Assembly (NCBI GenBank): GCA_027488115.1
Contig: JAIYCG010000026.1
Coordinates: 1-64,000, forward strand
Length of the DNA: 64,000 nt
Reading direction: 5' to 3'
Source: Comamonadaceae bacterium
Lineage (GTDB): Bacteria > Pseudomonadota > Gammaproteobacteria > Burkholderiales > Burkholderiaceae_C
Of this stretch, positions 42,311 to 50,788 are shown in pieces (the first letter of the stretch is position 1; each line of letters begins with the position of its first letter). A program made the translations under genes and the position numbers. The notes under the pieces are model-generated. The model saw nothing but the letters and a program-made list of their open reading frames with translations, was not told the DNA's origin and ran no database searches.

Positions 42311-43798
42311 ATGCCTGATACATCTTCCAAACCCCAAAACTTGACCAAGGCATGGAACGACTACGACGGTCCGCATTTGGATTTGCGCGAACTGATCGCT
42401 CGCGCAGAACTTGCCGACGAGGTCTTGCACATTTCTGGAGCCGATTGGAATTTGGAAGTGGGGACCTTGGCCGAAATTGTCAATTCTTCGCGCAAGGGCG
42501 AACCCAAGGCCATCTTGTTCGACAACATTCCTGGTTATCCTCCTGGCTATCGCTTGTTGTCGGGCGGTACCAATTCGTCCAAGCGCTTGGCCTTGACCTT
42601 GGGCTTCCCCGTTCCGAAGGGTCCGATGGATGTCGTGCAGGCCTACCGCAATCGCATGCAAAAACATGAGCCTATTCCACCACGCGTTGTGCCAACAGGC
42701 CCCATCATGGAAAACGTAGATCGCGGCGAAGATGTCGATATTTTCAAGTTCCCCATTCCCCTGTTGCATGAGTTAGATGGGGGTCGGTACATCGGCACCG
42801 ATGACTTGGTCATCATGCGTGACCCAGAGCTAGACTGGATCAACATTGGCACTTACCGCGCTATGGCGCACGACAAAAATAAAGTAGGCCTTTGGACATC
42901 ACCCGGAAAACATGGCCGCCAAATTCGCGACAAATACTTTGCACAGGGCAAGCCTTGTCCTGTCCTTATTTCTTGCGGACATGACCCCTTGTTGTTCTTG
43001 GCCGGTGGCAATGAACTGCGCTTTGGTTTGTCTGAATTTGACTACTCTGGCGGGCATCGTGGTTTGCCATTTGATGTGGTGCTGAGTGAGGTGCACCAAC
43101 TGCCCATGCCAGCACACAGCGAAATTGTGCTGGAAGGCGAGATGTACCCTGGCGAAACATTGCCAGAAGGCCCATTTGGGGAATTCACAGGTTATTACGC
43201 AGGTGGCAAAAGCAATCAACCCGTGGTGCGCATCCAACGGGTGTATTACCGCAATAACCCCATCATGACCATGGCTACGCCCCTGAAGCCGCCATCCGAC
43301 TTCTCCTTTTCAAAGTGTGTCATGAAGGCCGGCATGATTTGGGATGAAGTCGAGCGTGCAGGTTTGTCAGGCGTGAAAGGCGTGTGGTGTCATGAGGCAG
43401 GCGCAGCGCGCATGCTCAATATCATCTCGATCAAACAAGCCTATGCAGGCCACTCCAAACAAGCCGCCATGATGGCCGCAAATTGTCAATCGGGTTCTTA
43501 TCTAGGCCGATTTGTGGTGGTCGTCGATGATGATGTTGATCCAACAGACTTGTTTGACGTGATGTGGGCCATGTGCACGCGCTGTGACCCTGTAGAAGAC
43601 ATTGAGTTCATTCGAAAAGCTTGGAGTGGTCCTTTGGACCCGCGCATCCCCCGCGGTACCAGCACCAATTCTCGGGCCGTCATTGATGCTTGCCGACCTT
43701 TTGAAATGCTCAAAGATTTTCCGCCTGTGGCATGTGCAAGTCCTGAGTTGAAGCAGCGCGTGGCTGAAAAATTCAAATCGTATTTAGTCGGTCTTTAA
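42311..43798 (+). CDS. UbiD family decarboxylase
   Basis: [73 protein letters not shown]. Confidence 0.93.
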
Positions 43799-43818: not shown

Positions 43819-44325
43819 ATGTATTCACTGAATGTCAACGGCAAAGTCCAAAAAATTGATGCAGAACCAGAGATGCCACTGCTTTGGGTTGTTCGTGAGG
43901 TGCTTGGCCTCACAGGAACCAAATTTGGTTGTGGCATTGCCCAATGCGGTGCCTGCACCGTGCACGTAGACGGACAACCAATCCGTTCTTGTTCAGTTCC
44001 TGGCTCTGCCATGGCGGGTCGCAAAATCACCACCATTGAAGGCCTGTCAAACAACAGCAGTCACCCTGTGCAAAAAGCATGGGCTGAAGTTGATGTTCCC
44101 CAATGCGGATACTGCCAGTCGGGTCAAATCATGGCAGCCTCAGCTTTACTGAAGCGCACCCCCAAGCCTACCAACAAAGACATTGATTTGGCCATGACCA
44201 ACATTTGCCGTTGCGGTACGTACCAACGCATTCGCGAGGCCATTCATGTGGCGGCAGGGACTAAGAAATTGGCCAAGTCCGACAGCGGTGAAGTTGCCGC
44301 TTTGGTTCAACAAATCAAAGTTTAA
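43819..44325 (+). CDS. (2Fe-2S)-binding protein, small subunit of a molybdenum hydroxylase (IorA-like)
   Basis: [54 protein letters not shown]. Confidence 0.95.
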
Positions 44326-44336
44326 GGAGAAACAAC

Positions 44337-46541
44337 ATGAGTCAAATTCAAACTTCTCCTGCTCAGCTTTCACGTCGCAGTTTCATGGTTGGAACATCCG
44401 CCATGGCCAGCGGTGGTCTTGCCTTGGGCTTTAACTTGTTGTCAACTTCTGAGGCTCTCGCGCAAAGCTCTGAGGCAACACCTGAGATTGGTGTTTGGGT
44501 TGTGGTCAAGCCCGATGACACTTGTGTGGTTCGCGTAGTTCGCTCAGAAATGGGACAAGGCACCCGCACGGGCTTGGCCCAATTGGTGGCCGAAGAATTA
44601 GAGTGTGATTGGTCCAAAATTACTACCGAGTCGCCTACAGCGGGTCAAAACTTAAAGCGCAAGCGCGCTTGGGGTGACATGAGTACCGGTGGTAGCCGAG
44701 GTATCCGTACTTCCCAAGATTACGTTCGCCGCGGTGGTGCGGTCGCTCGAATGATGCTCGTTCAGGCGGCGGCCAATGAATGGAATGTGCCAGCCACAGA
44801 GCTCACAACTTCAAACAGCGTCATTACCCACGCTGCATCAGGTCGTAAGACAACTTATGGCCAGGTGGCTGCGGCCGCGGCCAAGTTGCCTGTGCCCGAC
44901 ATGAAATCGGTTGTTCTGAAGGACCCGCGTACGTGGAAAATTGCTGGTAAATCTGTCAAGCGTTTGGATACGCCAAACAAGCTTAACGGCAAACTCATTT
45001 ACGGTATTGACTTGAAGATGGATGGCATGTTGTGTGCCACAGTCATGGATTGCCCCGTATTTGGTGGCAAGCTTGTAAGTTTTGACGACAGTAAAGTGAA
45101 AACATTGCGCGGGGTGAAAGCCGTGGTGCGCGTTGATGCCTCCACTGTGGCTGTGGTTGCTGATACTTGGTGGCGCGCAAAAAATGCATTGGCGCAACTT
45201 CCTATTGTTTGGGACGAAGGCCCCAACGCCAAAGTCAACAGTGCCATGATTGCAGACCACGTCCGTGAGGGACTCACGGCACGTGGTAATTTTGCGGGCC
45301 GCAATGAAGGTGACGCCATCTCTGTTGTTGCCAATGCTCCCAGAAAAGTCGAAGCCATTTACAGCTCTCCCTTCTTATCACACGCCCCGCTGGAACCCAT
45401 GAATTGCACGGCGCGTTGGACTGCTGACAAGGCCGAGGTCTGGACGCCCACCCAAAACGCAGAGGCCTCCTTGGCGGTGTTGGCCGAAACCGCAGGCTTG
45501 CCCCTGGAAAAGTGCGAGGTCTATGTGACAGATCTGGGCGGTGCATTTGGTCGCAAAGGTGGCCAGCAAGATTTTGTCTCTCAAGCCGTCAAAATTGCCA
45601 AACAGTTTCCAGGCACGCCCATCAAAATGATTTGGACGCGTGAAGAAGATCAAACCCACGATTACTATCGCCCCATTTCTCAGTGCCACATGAAAGCTGG
45701 CCTTGACGACAAAGGCAACTTGGTGGGCATGACCCTTCGGTCTTCAGGTCAGTCCATCAACGCATGGGTGAACCCCTCTGCCATCAAGGATGGCAAAGAT
45801 GAACGCCAGCTTCAAGGCTTCTGGAAAGAGCCTGGCGACGCCCAATTGGGATACACCATTCCGAATTTGCTCACTGAATATGCCATTCGCAACACCCATG
45901 TGCCAGTTGGCCCTTGGCGCGGTGTGAACACCAACCAAAACGGTGTTTACATGGAATGCTTCATTGAAGAAGTGGCTCGGGCCTCAGGCAAAGATTCGTT
46001 GGCGTTCCGTCAAGCCTTGATGCAAAACCATCCCAAGCATTTGCAAGTGCTCAATGCGGCTGCAGAAAAAGGCGATTGGGGTAAGCCTGTCGCCCCTGGT
46101 GTTTTCAGGGGCATTGCTCAGTTTATGGGTTATGGCGCTTATTCAGCAGCGGTTGCAGAAGTCACTGTCAGCCCCAAAGGCGAAGTCAAAGTCTTGCGCA
46201 TGGTGTTGGCCACCAATGCTGGCCATTTCGTCAATCCCCATCAAGTTGCAGCGCAAGTTGAGGGGGGTGTGGTCATGGGTCTTAGCGCTACGTTTTTTGG
46301 CGAATGCACCGTTGAAAATGGCCGCATCAAAGAAAAGAACTTTGACACTTACCAACTGCTCAAACTAGCTCAGATGCCTAAAGTGGAAACTGTTTTGGTG
46401 CCCACTTACGATTTCTGGGGAGGTGTGGGTGAACCCACCATTTGTGTGGTGGCGCCCGCTGTGATCAATGCTATTTCCGCTGCTGTTGGCAAACCCCTGC
46501 GCGATTTGCCTTTGAAGAATGCAGGCTTTAAGTTTGTTTGA
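44337..46541 (+). CDS. Molybdopterin-dependent oxidoreductase (IorB-like), TAT signal
   Basis: SRRSFMVGTSAMASGGLALG; RSEMGQGTRTGLAQLVAEEL; TDLGGAFGRKGGQQDFVSQA; VPVGPWRGVNTNQNGVYMECFIEE. Confidence 0.93.
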   Translation: MSQIQTSPAQLSRRSFMVGTSAMASGGLALGFNLLSTSEALAQSSEATPEIGVWVVVKPDDTCVVRVVRSEMGQGTRTGLAQLVAEELECDWSKITTESPTAGQNLKRKRAWGDMSTGGSRGIRTSQDYVRRGGAVARMMLVQAAANEWNVPATELTTSNSVITHAASGRKTTYGQVAAAAAKLPVPDMKSVVLKDPRTWKIAGKSVKRLDTPNKLNGKLIYGIDLKMDGMLCATVMDCPVFGGKLVSFDDSKVKTLRGVKAVVRVDASTVAVVADTWWRAKNALAQLPIVWDEGPNAKVNSAMIADHVREGLTARGNFAGRNEGDAISVVANAPRKVEAIYSSPFLSHAPLEPMNCTARWTADKAEVWTPTQNAEASLAVLAETAGLPLEKCEVYVTDLGGAFGRKGGQQDFVSQAVKIAKQFPGTPIKMIWTREEDQTHDYYRPISQCHMKAGLDDKGNLVGMTLRSSGQSINAWVNPSAIKDGKDERQLQGFWKEPGDAQLGYTIPNLLTEYAIRNTHVPVGPWRGVNTNQNGVYMECFIEEVARASGKDSLAFRQALMQNHPKHLQVLNAAAEKGDWGKPVAPGVFRGIAQFMGYGAYSAAVAEVTVSPKGEVKVLRMVLATNAGHFVNPHQVAAQVEGGVVMGLSATFFGECTVENGRIKEKNFDTYQLLKLAQMPKVETVLVPTYDFWGGVGEPTICVVAPAVINAISAAVGKPLRDLPLKNAGFKFV

Positions 46542-46568
46542 TTGACTTTAGACTTCTTTAAACTCAAT

Positions 46569-47432
46569 TCATCGCCGCAAGGAAGGCCCTTCAATGGGCA
46601 TGCCTTGCGCGCGAGATTTTAAAAATAATTCCAATTGTCTGAGCTCTGGGCTGCCAGGCGCAGGCACTTCGGCTTGAACGCCTGAGTAACAGGCTCTCAA
46701 TCTGCGGTCGATGGAACCCATGCTTTGCCAACTCAATTTGAAAATTGGAAATCCGGTGGGATGACCCGGTGAGATGACATCTGCGCGCATGGTTTTGCCA
46801 ATGTTCAAATCATGGCAATGCGTACAAGCTAAATTCATTCGTCCGATGCGCGTTGTGAAAAGTTTGGCGCCTTCGTTCAGTTCAAGTTGCCACCGCTCTT
46901 TCACTTCCTCCTTCGGTGTCGTTTGAAAATTCAAACCTGCGCTGGTTTGATGTAAGAGGGCGCTGAGAGAGAGAACATCTGCGTTTTCAAGACCTTTGAA
47001 GGGCTGCTGCGTTCGCTCAGAACAAATCAAGATCTGATCTTCAAGGTTAATTAATTTTTGCTGTTTGACAGACCACATGGGAAAGTGCGTTGCGGCTTGT
47101 CGCATTTTGTCAATGTTGCCGTGGCACTTTGAACAGGATGCTTGTCCTGCCCAGAGCACTCTTCCTTGTTCCAGCCACAAGCTCACAGGATTGGTGCTGG
47201 GGTCGTTTTGAATCGCTTTCAGCGAGGGGCTTAAAAAAGCCTGACCACTGAGCTGATTCAAAGGCCCTTTAGGCAAGCTTGAATTTTCTTGTGAAACAGA
47301 TTGAGCCACCGAGAAAAATGGCACACCAAAGAGCAAGTAAAGAGAGAGCAGCCAACGCATGCGTTTACAAAACCAATCGCTGTTGCGTTTCACCCATCTG
47401 TCCTGAATCGTCTTTCCAAATGACTTTGACAA
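46569..47432 (-). CDS. soxA: SoxA-like diheme c-type cytochrome
   Basis: CSKCHG and CTHCHD heme motifs; RRLRACYSGVQAEVPAPGSPELRQLELFLKSRAQG; adjacent to soxZ. Confidence 0.88.
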   Translation of the reverse strand: MSKSFGKTIQDRWVKRNSDWFCKRMRWLLSLYLLFGVPFFSVAQSVSQENSSLPKGPLNQLSGQAFLSPSLKAIQNDPSTNPVSLWLEQGRVLWAGQASCSKCHGNIDKMRQAATHFPMWSVKQQKLINLEDQILICSERTQQPFKGLENADVLSLSALLHQTSAGLNFQTTPKEEVKERWQLELNEGAKLFTTRIGRMNLACTHCHDLNIGKTMRADVISPGHPTGFPIFKLSWQSMGSIDRRLRACYSGVQAEVPAPGSPELRQLELFLKSRAQGMPIEGPSLRR

Positions 47433-47694
47433 TGCCGCCTTCTAAAGGCACCAAGACTGGAAAAGCCAAGTACACAGGCGATGTCATCGCTGTTCCAAGG
47501 TCTGCCTCCATGATCAATCGATCATTCAAATAGGCCCTCACGGTGTGGATGATATTTTTTGGGATTTGCCGTCCAGAATCGTCTACACGAAACCCAGAGT
47601 CCATGGGGTGGGCTGCAGACCAGCGAGCTTCTACATGCGCACCAGCTTTAACCTGGCCTGTCAATGCAAGTCGAGTGAGTATGGGAGCGCTCAT
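47365..47694 (-). CDS. soxZ: SoxZ-like sulfur carrier subunit
   Basis: HPMDSGFRVDDSGRQIPKNIIHTVRAYLNDRLIMEADLGTAMTSPVYLAFPV. Confidence 0.9.
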   Translation of the reverse strand: MSAPILTRLALTGQVKAGAHVEARWSAAHPMDSGFRVDDSGRQIPKNIIHTVRAYLNDRLIMEADLGTAMTSPVYLAFPVLVPLEGGIVKVIWKDDSGQMGETQQRLVL

Positions 47695-47700
47695 GTGAAA

Positions 47701-48138
47701 TTAAGAATCATCTAGGCATGCTGTGGATGTGATGACGGTTGGCGCATGGTTGGCGCGCTCACTGCCATCATTGAAATAGGCAACGAGCCATACGGACTGA
47801 CTGGCTGCCAGTCGGAGGCGCGTTTTCAATCTGTACTGAACCGGTTGGTCCAGGATCTTGAGGTGAAGTGCCTCAGGGTTGGGGTTCTCTGGCAAGATCA
47901 CTTTCAGTGCCTTCAGATAAAGACCTGAAGGCGCAGTAATCAGTGCTTCTAACGGAACGGCATTGCCGGTGTCTGCCAACCTTGGAAAAACGAGTTCAAT
48001 GCCATCAGGTGACAACTCATTCAGCGGTTTAGAAATCGCCAATGTGTGCGGCACCGCCAACCAGGTGCCCAAGGCCCATACCATACCGCTTCGTCGCATT
48101 GGGCTGTGTTCATTGAAAGGCGTTGGGGTCTTGCGCAT
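47701..48138 (-). CDS. soxY: SoxY-related carrier protein with variant C-terminal arm (STACLDDS instead of GGCGG)
   Basis: ELVFPRLADTGNAVPLEALITAPSGLYLKALKVILPENPNPEALHLKI; C-terminus PTVITSTACLDDS. Confidence 0.82.
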   Translation of the reverse strand: MRKTPTPFNEHSPMRRSGMVWALGTWLAVPHTLAISKPLNELSPDGIELVFPRLADTGNAVPLEALITAPSGLYLKALKVILPENPNPEALHLKILDQPVQYRLKTRLRLAASQSVWLVAYFNDGSERANHAPTVITSTACLDDS

Positions 48139-48143
48139 TTTGT

Positions 48144-48590
48144 TTATCGCCACGATTGCAGGGTGAAGACCACTTGAGCAATTTGTTCGTTCGACAGAAT
48201 GACCCGAGCTGGCCGAGTCAACTTCAAATCATGCGTGCTTCCAAAGGGGGGCATTAAGGTGTCTGCATTGAACTTGCGTGCATCGACAACCCACTGCATC
48301 AATTCCTTTTCAGAGTATTTCCGACCCACGCCTTGGAGAGACGGTGCAAAATTGCTCGTCAAACCTTGAACGCCAGGCATGTCGTGGCATGCAATGCAAT
48401 TACCATATTGCTTGTTGGTCATCAATTCATAGCCAGAAGTTTTGACTTCGGCAGTTTGTGCAGCGGCGGGTGAAAGAACCACCAGGCCGATGAGCATGCT
48501 AAGCGTAAAAATCTGCAATTTCATGTTTTGCATTGTGTCATTGAGTGATTTCGACTGCTGAGTAATTTCTTTCATAGGGATATGAGTCAT
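48144..48590 (-). CDS. soxX: SoxX-like c-type cytochrome
   Basis: GNCIACHDMPG; APSLQGVGRKYSEKELMQWVVDARKFNADTLMPPFG; first gene of the soxXYZA order. Confidence 0.87.
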   Translation of the reverse strand: MTHIPMKEITQQSKSLNDTMQNMKLQIFTLSMLIGLVVLSPAAAQTAEVKTSGYELMTNKQYGNCIACHDMPGVQGLTSNFAPSLQGVGRKYSEKELMQWVVDARKFNADTLMPPFGSTHDLKLTRPARVILSNEQIAQVVFTLQSWR

Positions 48591-48736: not shown

Positions 48737-50788
48737 ATGACTACCGTACTCCAAAGTTACATAGCCGGCCGCTGGGTTGGTCGGGAATCTGCACAAGCGC
48801 TACACAGCGCCATCAATGGCCAAGAAATCGCTTTTGCCCATGCTGAAACATTGGACTTTGCGGAGGCCCTTGAATACGGTCGCACCAAGGGGCTGCAAGG
48901 CATGTTGGCCATGGACTTTCAGCAACGTGCTGCGACATTGCGCGCCTTGGCCAAATATTTAGGTGAACGCAAAGAAGAGCTTTACGCTATTTCAGCCCAC
49001 ACGGGTGCGACACGCATTGATTCGTGGGTGGATATTGAAGGCGGTACGGGCACCTTGTTCGCCTATGCTGGCATGGCCGCCAGCGAACTGCCAAGTGGCA
49101 ATTTAATTCACGAAGGCCCCGTCACATCCTTGGGCAAGAAAAACACCTTTGCAGGCACCCATATTTTGGTGCCACGGGGTGGTGTGGCAGTTCACATCAA
49201 TGCCTTCAATTTTCCGGTGTGGGGTTTGTTGGAAAAATTTGCACCCACCTTTTTGGCAGGCATGCCTTGCATTGGAAAGCCAGCCACAGCCACCAGTTAC
49301 TTAACTGAAGCCCTGGTCCGAATGATTGATCAGTCCGGCATTTTGCCCAAGGGCGCATTGCAATTGGTGATTGGCAGCACGGGTGATTTACTTGACCGCT
49401 TGGACGTGGCCGATGTGGTCACTTTCACTGGCTCTGCCGACACGGCTGCCAAGTTGCGCGTGAACCCGAACGTGGTTCGCAACAGCATTCCATTCAACGC
49501 TGAAGCTGACTCTTTGAATTGCGCCATCTTGGCAGACGACGTCACACCGGATGATGAAGAGTTTGATTTGTTCGTCAAAGAGGTGGTTCGTGAAATGACC
49601 GTCAAAGCCGGCCAGAAGTGCACGGCCATTCGACGTGCTATTGTGCCGCGCAAGCACCTTGATGCGCTTGCTGAAAAAATCAAAACTCGATTGTCCAAGG
49701 TGGTGGTGGGAGATCCATCCGTTGAAGGTGTGAAGATGGGCGCATTGGCATCCAAATCACAACAATCAGACGTGGCTGAGCGCGTGGCCTTGTTGCGCCA
49801 GAGTGCTGAGTTGGTTTACGGCGGTGATGCCAATTTCAGCTTGGTAGGCCAGGGCGTGGACAAGGGTTATTTCTTTCAACCCACTTTGCTGTTGTGCCAA
49901 AAACCCTTAAGCACGGACAATGTTCACGACATTGAAGCCTTTGGTCCTGTGAGCACACTCATGCCTTACGACAACATGGAGGATGCGATGGCCTTGGCCA
50001 AGCGTGGCAAGGGCAGCTTGGTGGGTTCATTGATCACCAAGACCCCTTCAGTGGCTGCGCAAGTGGTTCCGCGATTGGCTGCCAATCACGGACGATTGCA
50101 TGTGCTAGATCGCGAATCTGCTGGCGAATCAACCGGCCACGGCTCACCGCTGCCTTCTTTGAAACACGGCGGCCCTGGTCGAGCGGGTGGTGGCGAAGAA
50201 TTGGGCGGTATTCGCGCTGTCACTCACATGATGCAACGTGCGGCTGTGCAAGGTTCACCTAGCATGTTGACGGCGATCACACGCGAGTACGCCCGTGGTG
50301 CCAAAGTCATTGAAACGGGCACCCATCCGTTCAAACGTTATTTTGAAGAGTTGCAAATTGGCGAGTCATTGTTGACAGCATCAAAGCTCATTGGTGAAGC
50401 GGATGTGAAAGCCTTTGGCGAACTCACAGGCGATATGTTTTACATGCACTTTGACGACGAAGCCGCCAAGGCTTCGGCTTTTGGGAAACGAATTGCGCAC
50501 GGCTATTTGGTTTTGTCTGATGCGGCAGGCTTGTTCGTGGTGGCCGAGCCAGGGCCCGTCTTGGCCAACTATGGCTTGGACACTTTGCGGTTTGTGAAGC
50601 CTGTCGGTTTGGGTGACACCATTCAGGTGCGCCTTACATGCAAACGCAAGATTGATCGAAACAAAAAAGACGCCAATGGCCAAGGGCAGGGCGTGGTGGC
50701 TTGGGATGTTGAGGTGAGCAATCAGGACAAGGAATTGGTGGCGAGTTATGACATCCTCACCTTGGTTGCAAAGCAGCATTCAAATTAG
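48737..50788 (+). CDS. paaZ: PaaZ-like bifunctional aldehyde dehydrogenase / enoyl-CoA (oxepin-CoA) hydratase
   Basis: ALDH domain (HINAFNFPVWGLLEKFAPTFLAGMPCIGKPA) fused to a MaoC-like domain (FGELTGDMFYMHFDDEAAKASAFGKRIAHGYLVLSDAAG); 683 aa. Confidence 0.93.
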   Translation: MTTVLQSYIAGRWVGRESAQALHSAINGQEIAFAHAETLDFAEALEYGRTKGLQGMLAMDFQQRAATLRALAKYLGERKEELYAISAHTGATRIDSWVDIEGGTGTLFAYAGMAASELPSGNLIHEGPVTSLGKKNTFAGTHILVPRGGVAVHINAFNFPVWGLLEKFAPTFLAGMPCIGKPATATSYLTEALVRMIDQSGILPKGALQLVIGSTGDLLDRLDVADVVTFTGSADTAAKLRVNPNVVRNSIPFNAEADSLNCAILADDVTPDDEEFDLFVKEVVREMTVKAGQKCTAIRRAIVPRKHLDALAEKIKTRLSKVVVGDPSVEGVKMGALASKSQQSDVAERVALLRQSAELVYGGDANFSLVGQGVDKGYFFQPTLLLCQKPLSTDNVHDIEAFGPVSTLMPYDNMEDAMALAKRGKGSLVGSLITKTPSVAAQVVPRLAANHGRLHVLDRESAGESTGHGSPLPSLKHGGPGRAGGGEELGGIRAVTHMMQRAAVQGSPSMLTAITREYARGAKVIETGTHPFKRYFEELQIGESLLTASKLIGEADVKAFGELTGDMFYMHFDDEAAKASAFGKRIAHGYLVLSDAAGLFVVAEPGPVLANYGLDTLRFVKPVGLGDTIQVRLTCKRKIDRNKKDANGQGQGVVAWDVEVSNQDKELVASYDILTLVAKQHSN

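Follow-up and report, generated by a model that had tools for sequence, protein, structure and literature searches.

The soxXYZA genes described here encode the carrier component of a conserved module around a Mo hydroxylase of the XO family, predicted to be periplasmic, and are not a truncated thiosulfate-oxidation operon. They lie in a 64,000-nucleotide stretch of a Comamonadaceae genome (contig JAIYCG010000026.1), which was analysed whole and is called the window below. The pairing of a Sox carrier with a Mo hydroxylase recurs across many Proteobacteria and appears to be undescribed, as the open-access literature searched, which excludes most subscription journals, yielded no account of SoxYZ encoded next to a Mo hydroxylase. 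Earlier work describes SoxY with divergent arms as well as SoxYZ-like carriers next to PQQ enzymes (PMC11237559, PMC12997753), and reports 'SOX clusters' in Polynucleobacter whose function is unconfirmed (PMC3308952).

Gene content of the window

The four sox genes, all on the minus strand, run soxX, soxY, soxZ, soxA from 48590 to 46569. The genes of the Mo hydroxylase, a [2Fe-2S] small subunit (FeS) and a large subunit (MoL), lie on the plus strand, so that MoL is convergent to soxA across a gap of 27 bp. The features are as follows.

43819-44325, plus strand: FeS, small subunit of the XO-family Mo hydroxylase (Pfam Fer2 and Fer2_2)
44337-46541, plus strand: MoL, large subunit of the Mo hydroxylase (MoCoBD domains; Tat signal RRSF)
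46413-46436, plus strand: FWGGVGEP motif around the catalytic Glu699, which marks the clade of Sox-linked MoL
46569-47360, minus strand: soxA, diheme (TIGR04484 166.9 bits, over the cut-off of 110)
47365-47694, minus strand: variant soxZ (Pfam SoxZ 61.6 bits, above gathering; TIGR04490 60.4 bits, under the cut-off of 76)
47701-48153, minus strand: variant soxY, 150 aa, RR signal, C-terminus ITSTACLDDS
47704-47727, minus strand: carrier arm STACLDDS of SoxY (Cys146 codon at 47716-47718)
48144-48590, minus strand: soxX, c-type cytochrome with one CxxCH (TIGR04485 66.6 bits, over the cut-off of 61)

The soxX-Y-Z-A order and the intact heme motifs, which a first-pass annotation had read from the letters of the window, hold: all four open reading frames are present, and the CxxCH motifs of SoxX and SoxA are intact. 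SoxA contains two CxxCH motifs (CSKCH and CTHCH) and the ligand Cys in RLRAC, its nearest solved structure is the diheme SoxA 1h31, and SoxXA possesses the heme-ligand and catalytic Cys motifs of the Sox thiosulfate pathway. The open reading frame of soxA (46569-47432) opens with a TTG at 47432, inside soxZ; the likely start is the ATG at 47360, right behind the soxZ stop, which gives a protein of 263 aa and is preferred.

MoL belongs to the XO family by its MoCoBD domains, the conserved residues Q373, R528 and E699, its 2Fe-2S partner and a fold match to 8gy3. Its nearest solved relative is 8gy3_C, the membrane-bound aldehyde dehydrogenase of Gluconobacter (716 aligned columns, TM 0.83, 28% identity), in a comparison where the AlphaFold model of MoL supports the fold only. 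MoL differs from this enzyme in its FWGGxGEP loop and its Sox partners; we know of no Sox partner of the Gluconobacter protein. From its signal and domains, MoL is predicted to be a Tat-exported, periplasmic subunit, and an aldehyde- or heterocycle-type C-H oxidation would be expected of it, judged by its family. The first-pass annotation had suggested that the arm may carry an organosulfur compound or a sulfur species produced by neighbouring enzymes. In tying the carrier to its neighbourhood it was right in spirit, but it missed the enzyme itself, the Mo hydroxylase at 43819-46541. Over 43819-48153 the window carries a variant SoxY and SoxZ beside an FWGG-type MoL and FeS, the combination referred to here as a Mo-hydroxylase-linked Sox module, and the tie between carrier and Mo hydroxylase is conserved across Beta- and Alphaproteobacteria.

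The SoxY carrier arm

The window SoxY is a member of Pfam SoxY (47.3 bits, above gathering), and its AlphaFold model matches Paracoccus SoxY 2ox5 over the core (E 2e-7). With an arm reading STACLDDS, it lies outside canonical SoxY as defined by TIGR04488 (a GGCGG arm and more than 125 bits). The comparison with SoxY and AACIE-arm models proposed in the first-pass annotation placed TIGR04487, 'SoxY-related AACIE arm', first (53.7 bits, under its cut-off of 172) and SoxY_true_GGCGG (TIGR04488) second (42.3 bits, likewise under cut-off). The suspected kinship with the AACIE class stands on the SoxY tree, where the window type falls on the AACIE side and not the GGCGG side, but not by score, which is far under the curated cut-off.

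The arm is a stable feature. The ending ITSTACLD[DEG][ST] is shared by the nine SoxY of the initial comparison within the genus and by the 19 best-matching SoxY from other genomes of a species-level genome collection, and the arm ends in SSACFD or SSTCFD in four more relatives. STACLD is without variation in close relatives, and T-x-x-A-C-x-D is common to the SACVD relatives too. The dN/dS of soxY against relatives is approximately 0.09-0.24. Judged from these sequences, the arm is under selection and is no error. A non-canonical arm that retains its cysteine was therefore read correctly at the outset, and the frameshift or sequencing error then envisaged as an alternative is ruled out, given that the arm is invariant across 19 other genomes.

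Linkage of variant SoxY to the Mo hydroxylase

Linkage was defined as MoL and FeS within 6 kb of SoxY, in loci with full flanks (at least 5 kb either side of SoxY). The searches for variant-arm SoxY selected loci by SoxY and not by MoL, and a few later MoL-centred loci were also counted. By this measure, 45 of 47 SoxY with an xxC-x-[DE] arm were accompanied by MoL and FeS, against 0 of 8 SoxY with a GGC arm (Fisher p=3.7e-8); SoxB was present near four of the latter eight. Phage records gave no match.

The usual layout, on one strand, is FeS-MoL-[SoxX]-SoxY-SoxZ-[SoxA], sometimes with a flavocytochrome c sulfide dehydrogenase (FCSD). SoxY, SoxZ and MoL are constant, whereas SoxXA and FCSD are optional. 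This layout was found in many Burkholderiales families, including genomes of 1.7-2.1 Mb, and in Hyphomonas, the full order FeS-MoL-SoxX-SoxY-SoxZ-SoxA being the usual operon. The whole operon, together with an FCSD-like flavoprotein and a cytochrome c, also lies on plasmids of Methylobacterium sp. NMS14P and Roseomonas marmotae, and a Neorhizobium galegae plasmid has it with the flavoprotein; the SoxY of the Methylobacterium and Neorhizobium operons is annotated in its record as 'SoxY-related AACIE arm protein'. FCSD was assigned by Pfam at one locus (L175), whose gene clusters with genes of six other loci, and the plasmid flavoprotein matched sulfide-quinone-reductase-like models only, below cut-off.

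Other arms also occur among Mo-linked SoxY (CG-type, LACLEG and AACIIG). One branch with CG-type arms (AGCGL, TACGG, SSCG) has an operon without SoxXA (L185, L189, L190, L194, L198-L200, L204, L241, L242). Three loci (L094, L193, L201) hold variant-arm SoxXYZA (SACWDES, TACLDA) with no Mo hydroxylase in 16-17 kb and share other neighbours (gene clusters 24-27). On the symbiosis plasmid psymA of Sinorhizobium meliloti (L301, 1405686-1419982), a SoxYZ with the arm end NGCL has no Mo hydroxylase nearby.

Closer to the window, whose genome is of the Limnohabitans type, the best related loci come from records named, for example, Limnohabitans sp. or Comamonadaceae MAG, and cultured Limnohabitans such as Rim11, Rim28, JirII-31 and T6-5 carry the module. 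The sox and Mo sets occurred together in each of the first eight relatives compared, among which the flanking UbiD and PaaZ were variable; in the larger set, the Sox-Mo pairing holds wherever the contig is long enough, with the exception of one Rhodoferax contig (L082). In many Limnohabitans relatives the Mo-Sox region is bordered by a UbiD-like decarboxylase and PaaZ (window 42311-43798 and 48737-50788), which suggests that the region was inserted into an aromatic-degradation neighbourhood. As constant partners these two are ruled out, since both are missing from L041, where the Sox-Mo pair is retained. Further neighbour genes cluster by lineage only. A dedicated cytochrome c, considered as a possible mark of unlinked as opposed to linked MoL operons, was seen in few operons of either set.

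Phylogeny and private residues

In the MoL tree, all Sox-linked MoL fall in one clade (99% SH-aLRT), save one adjacent paralogue. W694 of FWGGxGEP, ahead of the catalytic Glu, is present in 100% of this clade, in contrast to Pro in 21 of 22 outgroup MoL, and E376, R518, R66 and R110 are nearly clade-specific. Where enough flank was available, MoL was Sox-linked in 78 of 88 FWGG proteins and in none of 21 others. Sox genes are absent within the stretch read for the remaining ten FWGG MoL, and therefore Sox is not strictly required at the same locus. FWGG-type Mo hydroxylases with no Sox genes within about 8 kb were seen in other Gammaproteobacteria (L304-L308).

The SoxY tree is short, with many forks that lack resolution, and splits SoxY at 100/99 into a GGC clade and a Mo-linked clade. 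Within the latter, the window type forms a fast-evolving branch; a recent duplicate of canonical SoxYZ is ruled out by this tree.

Sox genes across the genome

The window genome (2.95 Mb, 96% complete) contains no SoxB over cut-off, its sole match scoring 26 bits against a cut-off of 550, and no match to SoxC was found in the whole genome. The absence of SoxB and SoxCD, noted at first for the window only, thus extends to the genome, which does not satisfy the definition of the Sox thiosulfate pathway with respect to SoxB. The only SoxA copy is that of the window. Two further SoxYZ sets, both on contig C12, are present, neither with SoxB. The first, FeS-MoL-SoxY(ESACVDAS)-SoxZ, is AACIE-like with its own Mo hydroxylase, and its SoxY scores 115 bits against TIGR04487 (cut-off 172). 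The second, cytochrome c-FCSD-like-SoxY(GSCGS)-SoxZ, is GG-like; at this locus (G000 C12; L005:17417-19837 and L007) a cytochrome c, an FCSD-like flavoprotein, a small cytochrome, SoxY GSCGS and SoxZ were observed, with SoxXA and SoxB not adjoining. The GSCGS set is a second non-thiosulfate use of SoxYZ.

It had been allowed that a second canonical SoxYZ with SoxB might reduce the window set to a redundant duplicate. No SoxB accompanies the C12 sets, and in relatives that do have canonical SoxYZ with SoxB, the variant set forms a separate clade and is no recent duplicate. SoxB was over cut-off in 46 of 61 sampled congeners and stood alongside the module in 32 of 44 tested genomes; it was under cut-off in several near-complete module-bearing genomes. 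The complete-level genome G001 is without SoxB yet retains an unlinked variant-type SoxXA together with FeS-MoL-SoxYZ. There (L211, G001:C2:524000-542000), as in a second genome (L212, G032:C3:317000-335000), the variant SoxX and SoxA form a pair without SoxYZ, and FeS-MoL-SoxYZ lies elsewhere in the same genome.

Relation to known systems

The closest named family is TIGR04487 (SoxY_para_1), with which the window SoxY shares its clade in the SoxY tree and the arm pattern [AS][AST]C-x-[DE]. True members, from several Burkholderiales and Methylobacterium, lie in the FeS-MoL-SoxX-Y-Z-A operon. The window differs in its score (53.7 bits against 172), in reading STACLD and not AACIE, and in having its sox and Mo genes convergent rather than in a single operon. 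The canonical Sox pathway (SoxXAYZB, SoxCD) shares with the window the SoxX, SoxY, SoxZ and SoxA homologues, the diheme SoxA with its ligand Cys and the SoxY fold; unlike it, the window genome has no GGCGG arm in this set and neither SoxB nor SoxCD, and it has a Mo hydroxylase instead. The quinoprotein-associated carrier of TIGR04557 is likewise of the SoxYZ type and linked to a periplasmic oxidoreductase, not to thiosulfate oxidation (PMC11237559, PMC12997753). That system comprises a fused SoxYZ, SoxH and a PQQ enzyme, whereas the window combines separate SoxY and SoxZ with SoxXA and a Mo enzyme. The separate soxY and soxZ score 34.1 and 27.6 bits against TIGR04557 (cut-off 140) and fall outside this family of fused SoxYZ beside a PQQ dehydrogenase.

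Proposed role in sulfur donation and alternative explanations

Hydroxylases of the XO family require a terminal sulfido ligand (Mo=S), which can be lost in air, and XdhC is the usual factor that delivers it. It is tentatively proposed that SoxYZ passes sulfane sulfur to the Mo=S site of MoL. SoxXA would oxidatively load sulfane sulfur onto Cys146 of SoxYZ, and where an operon has an FCSD, this enzyme would provide the sulfane sulfur from sulfide. Without SoxB or SoxCD, nothing would strip or oxidise the Cys146-bound sulfur, and the non-GGCGG arm would be expected to be a poor substrate for the canonical SoxB/SoxCD that many relatives also have. The persulfide on the swinging arm could then be handed to the Mo enzyme, where the donated sulfur would set or restore Mo=S. 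To our knowledge, Sox proteins have no precedent in sulfur trafficking of this kind.

The donor model is favoured because the constant parts of the module are SoxY, SoxZ and MoL, with SoxXA and FCSD optional, because the model needs no sulfur-stripping enzyme, and because XdhC is scarcer next to Sox-linked MoL and does adjoin two FWGG MoL that lack Sox. XdhC adjoined MoL in 3 of 78 Sox-linked and 11 of 31 unlinked cases (p=4e-5), in counts that ignore phylogeny and cover genes beside MoL, so that Sox-linked genomes may have an XdhC gene at another site; at L305 and L307, both Sox-less FWGG loci, it directly adjoins MoL. Confidence in the model as a whole stays below even, because Hyphomonas operons have both Sox and XdhC, because other XO-family enzymes need no SoxYZ (the 21 unlinked MoL outside the clade, also periplasmic, manage without it), and because XdhC was counted beside MoL only. 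The private active-site motif also counts against the donor model, as a dedicated substrate would account for it no less well than a maintenance role. So do the ten FWGG MoL without Sox at their locus, and the layout of the window, where the sox and Mo sets are convergent and do not form one transcript. The more specific claim, that SoxXA-SoxYZ is a dedicated donor outside the cytoplasm that installs or repairs the Mo=S of periplasmic Mo hydroxylases and is common to Beta- and Alphaproteobacteria, is held to be doubtful.

The main rival is carrier-bound oxidative desulfuration, over which the donor model, whose chemistry we infer, is favoured. Here SoxXA would form a mixed disulfide between SoxY and a thiol R-CH2-SH, the arm would present the bound thiol to the Mo hydroxylase, and hydroxylation at the carbon beside the sulfur would free an aldehyde or acid, leaving a SoxY persulfide for FCSD or canonical Sox. 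The catalytic ligand Cys retained in SoxXA, the FCSD flavoprotein within the operon in several lineages and an aldehyde dehydrogenase as nearest solved relative of MoL are consistent with such a route, as are the private conserved residues near the active site and the extra Arg residues R66, R110 and R518, which could meet the acidic residue of the arm or an anionic substrate. However, CG-type-arm Mo-linked SoxY lack the acidic residue though their MoL retain the Arg residues, and neither a thiol substrate nor a transporter shows consistent linkage. The route accounts for FCSD and for the remodelled active site but leaves unexplained the FWGG MoL found without Sox nearby, which indicate an active site not shaped solely for the SoxY arm; it is considered somewhat unlikely.

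A protective role is less likely again. SoxXA/SoxYZ, with FCSD where present in the operon, would clear reactive sulfur (thiosulfate, sulfite or sulfide, for example) before it could poison the Mo site, in parallel with the protection suggested for SoxYZ-like proteins beside PQQ alcohol dehydrogenases (PMC12997753, PMC11237559). Scavenging needs a release step, yet SoxB is missing from several module genomes, and related periplasmic Mo hydroxylases of the same order have no Sox set.

Inorganic sulfur oxidation with the Mo hydroxylase replacing SoxCD/SoxB would accord with the absence of both from the window genome and with the intact SoxXA active site. It is judged improbable, given that the 32 of 44 tested genomes that keep SoxB alongside the module need no replacement; moreover, we know of no precedent for XO-family chemistry on sulfane sulfur. 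Finally, a redundant or decaying remnant of a lost thiosulfate pathway, to which the absent SoxB and the fast-evolving, low-scoring SoxY and SoxZ might point, is disfavoured as very improbable, since the arm and heme motifs are conserved in about 20 species, dN/dS is well under 1, the clade is separate from canonical SoxY of the same genus and MoL synteny is retained while the flanks change.

Implications

AACIE-arm SoxY is a named family for which no assigned role was found, and its co-inheritance with one MoL clade provides a concrete partner and a testable role. A soxXYZA set without soxB is easily read as partial thiosulfate oxidation; caution is warranted, as the presence of soxXYZA by itself does not justify calling thiosulfate oxidation in widespread freshwater bacteria, Limnohabitans among them. 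The module also poses the question of how periplasmic Mo enzymes acquire or retain their sulfido ligand. If true, the donor reading would represent an apparently new sulfur-trafficking use of Sox proteins, common to Beta- and Alphaproteobacteria.
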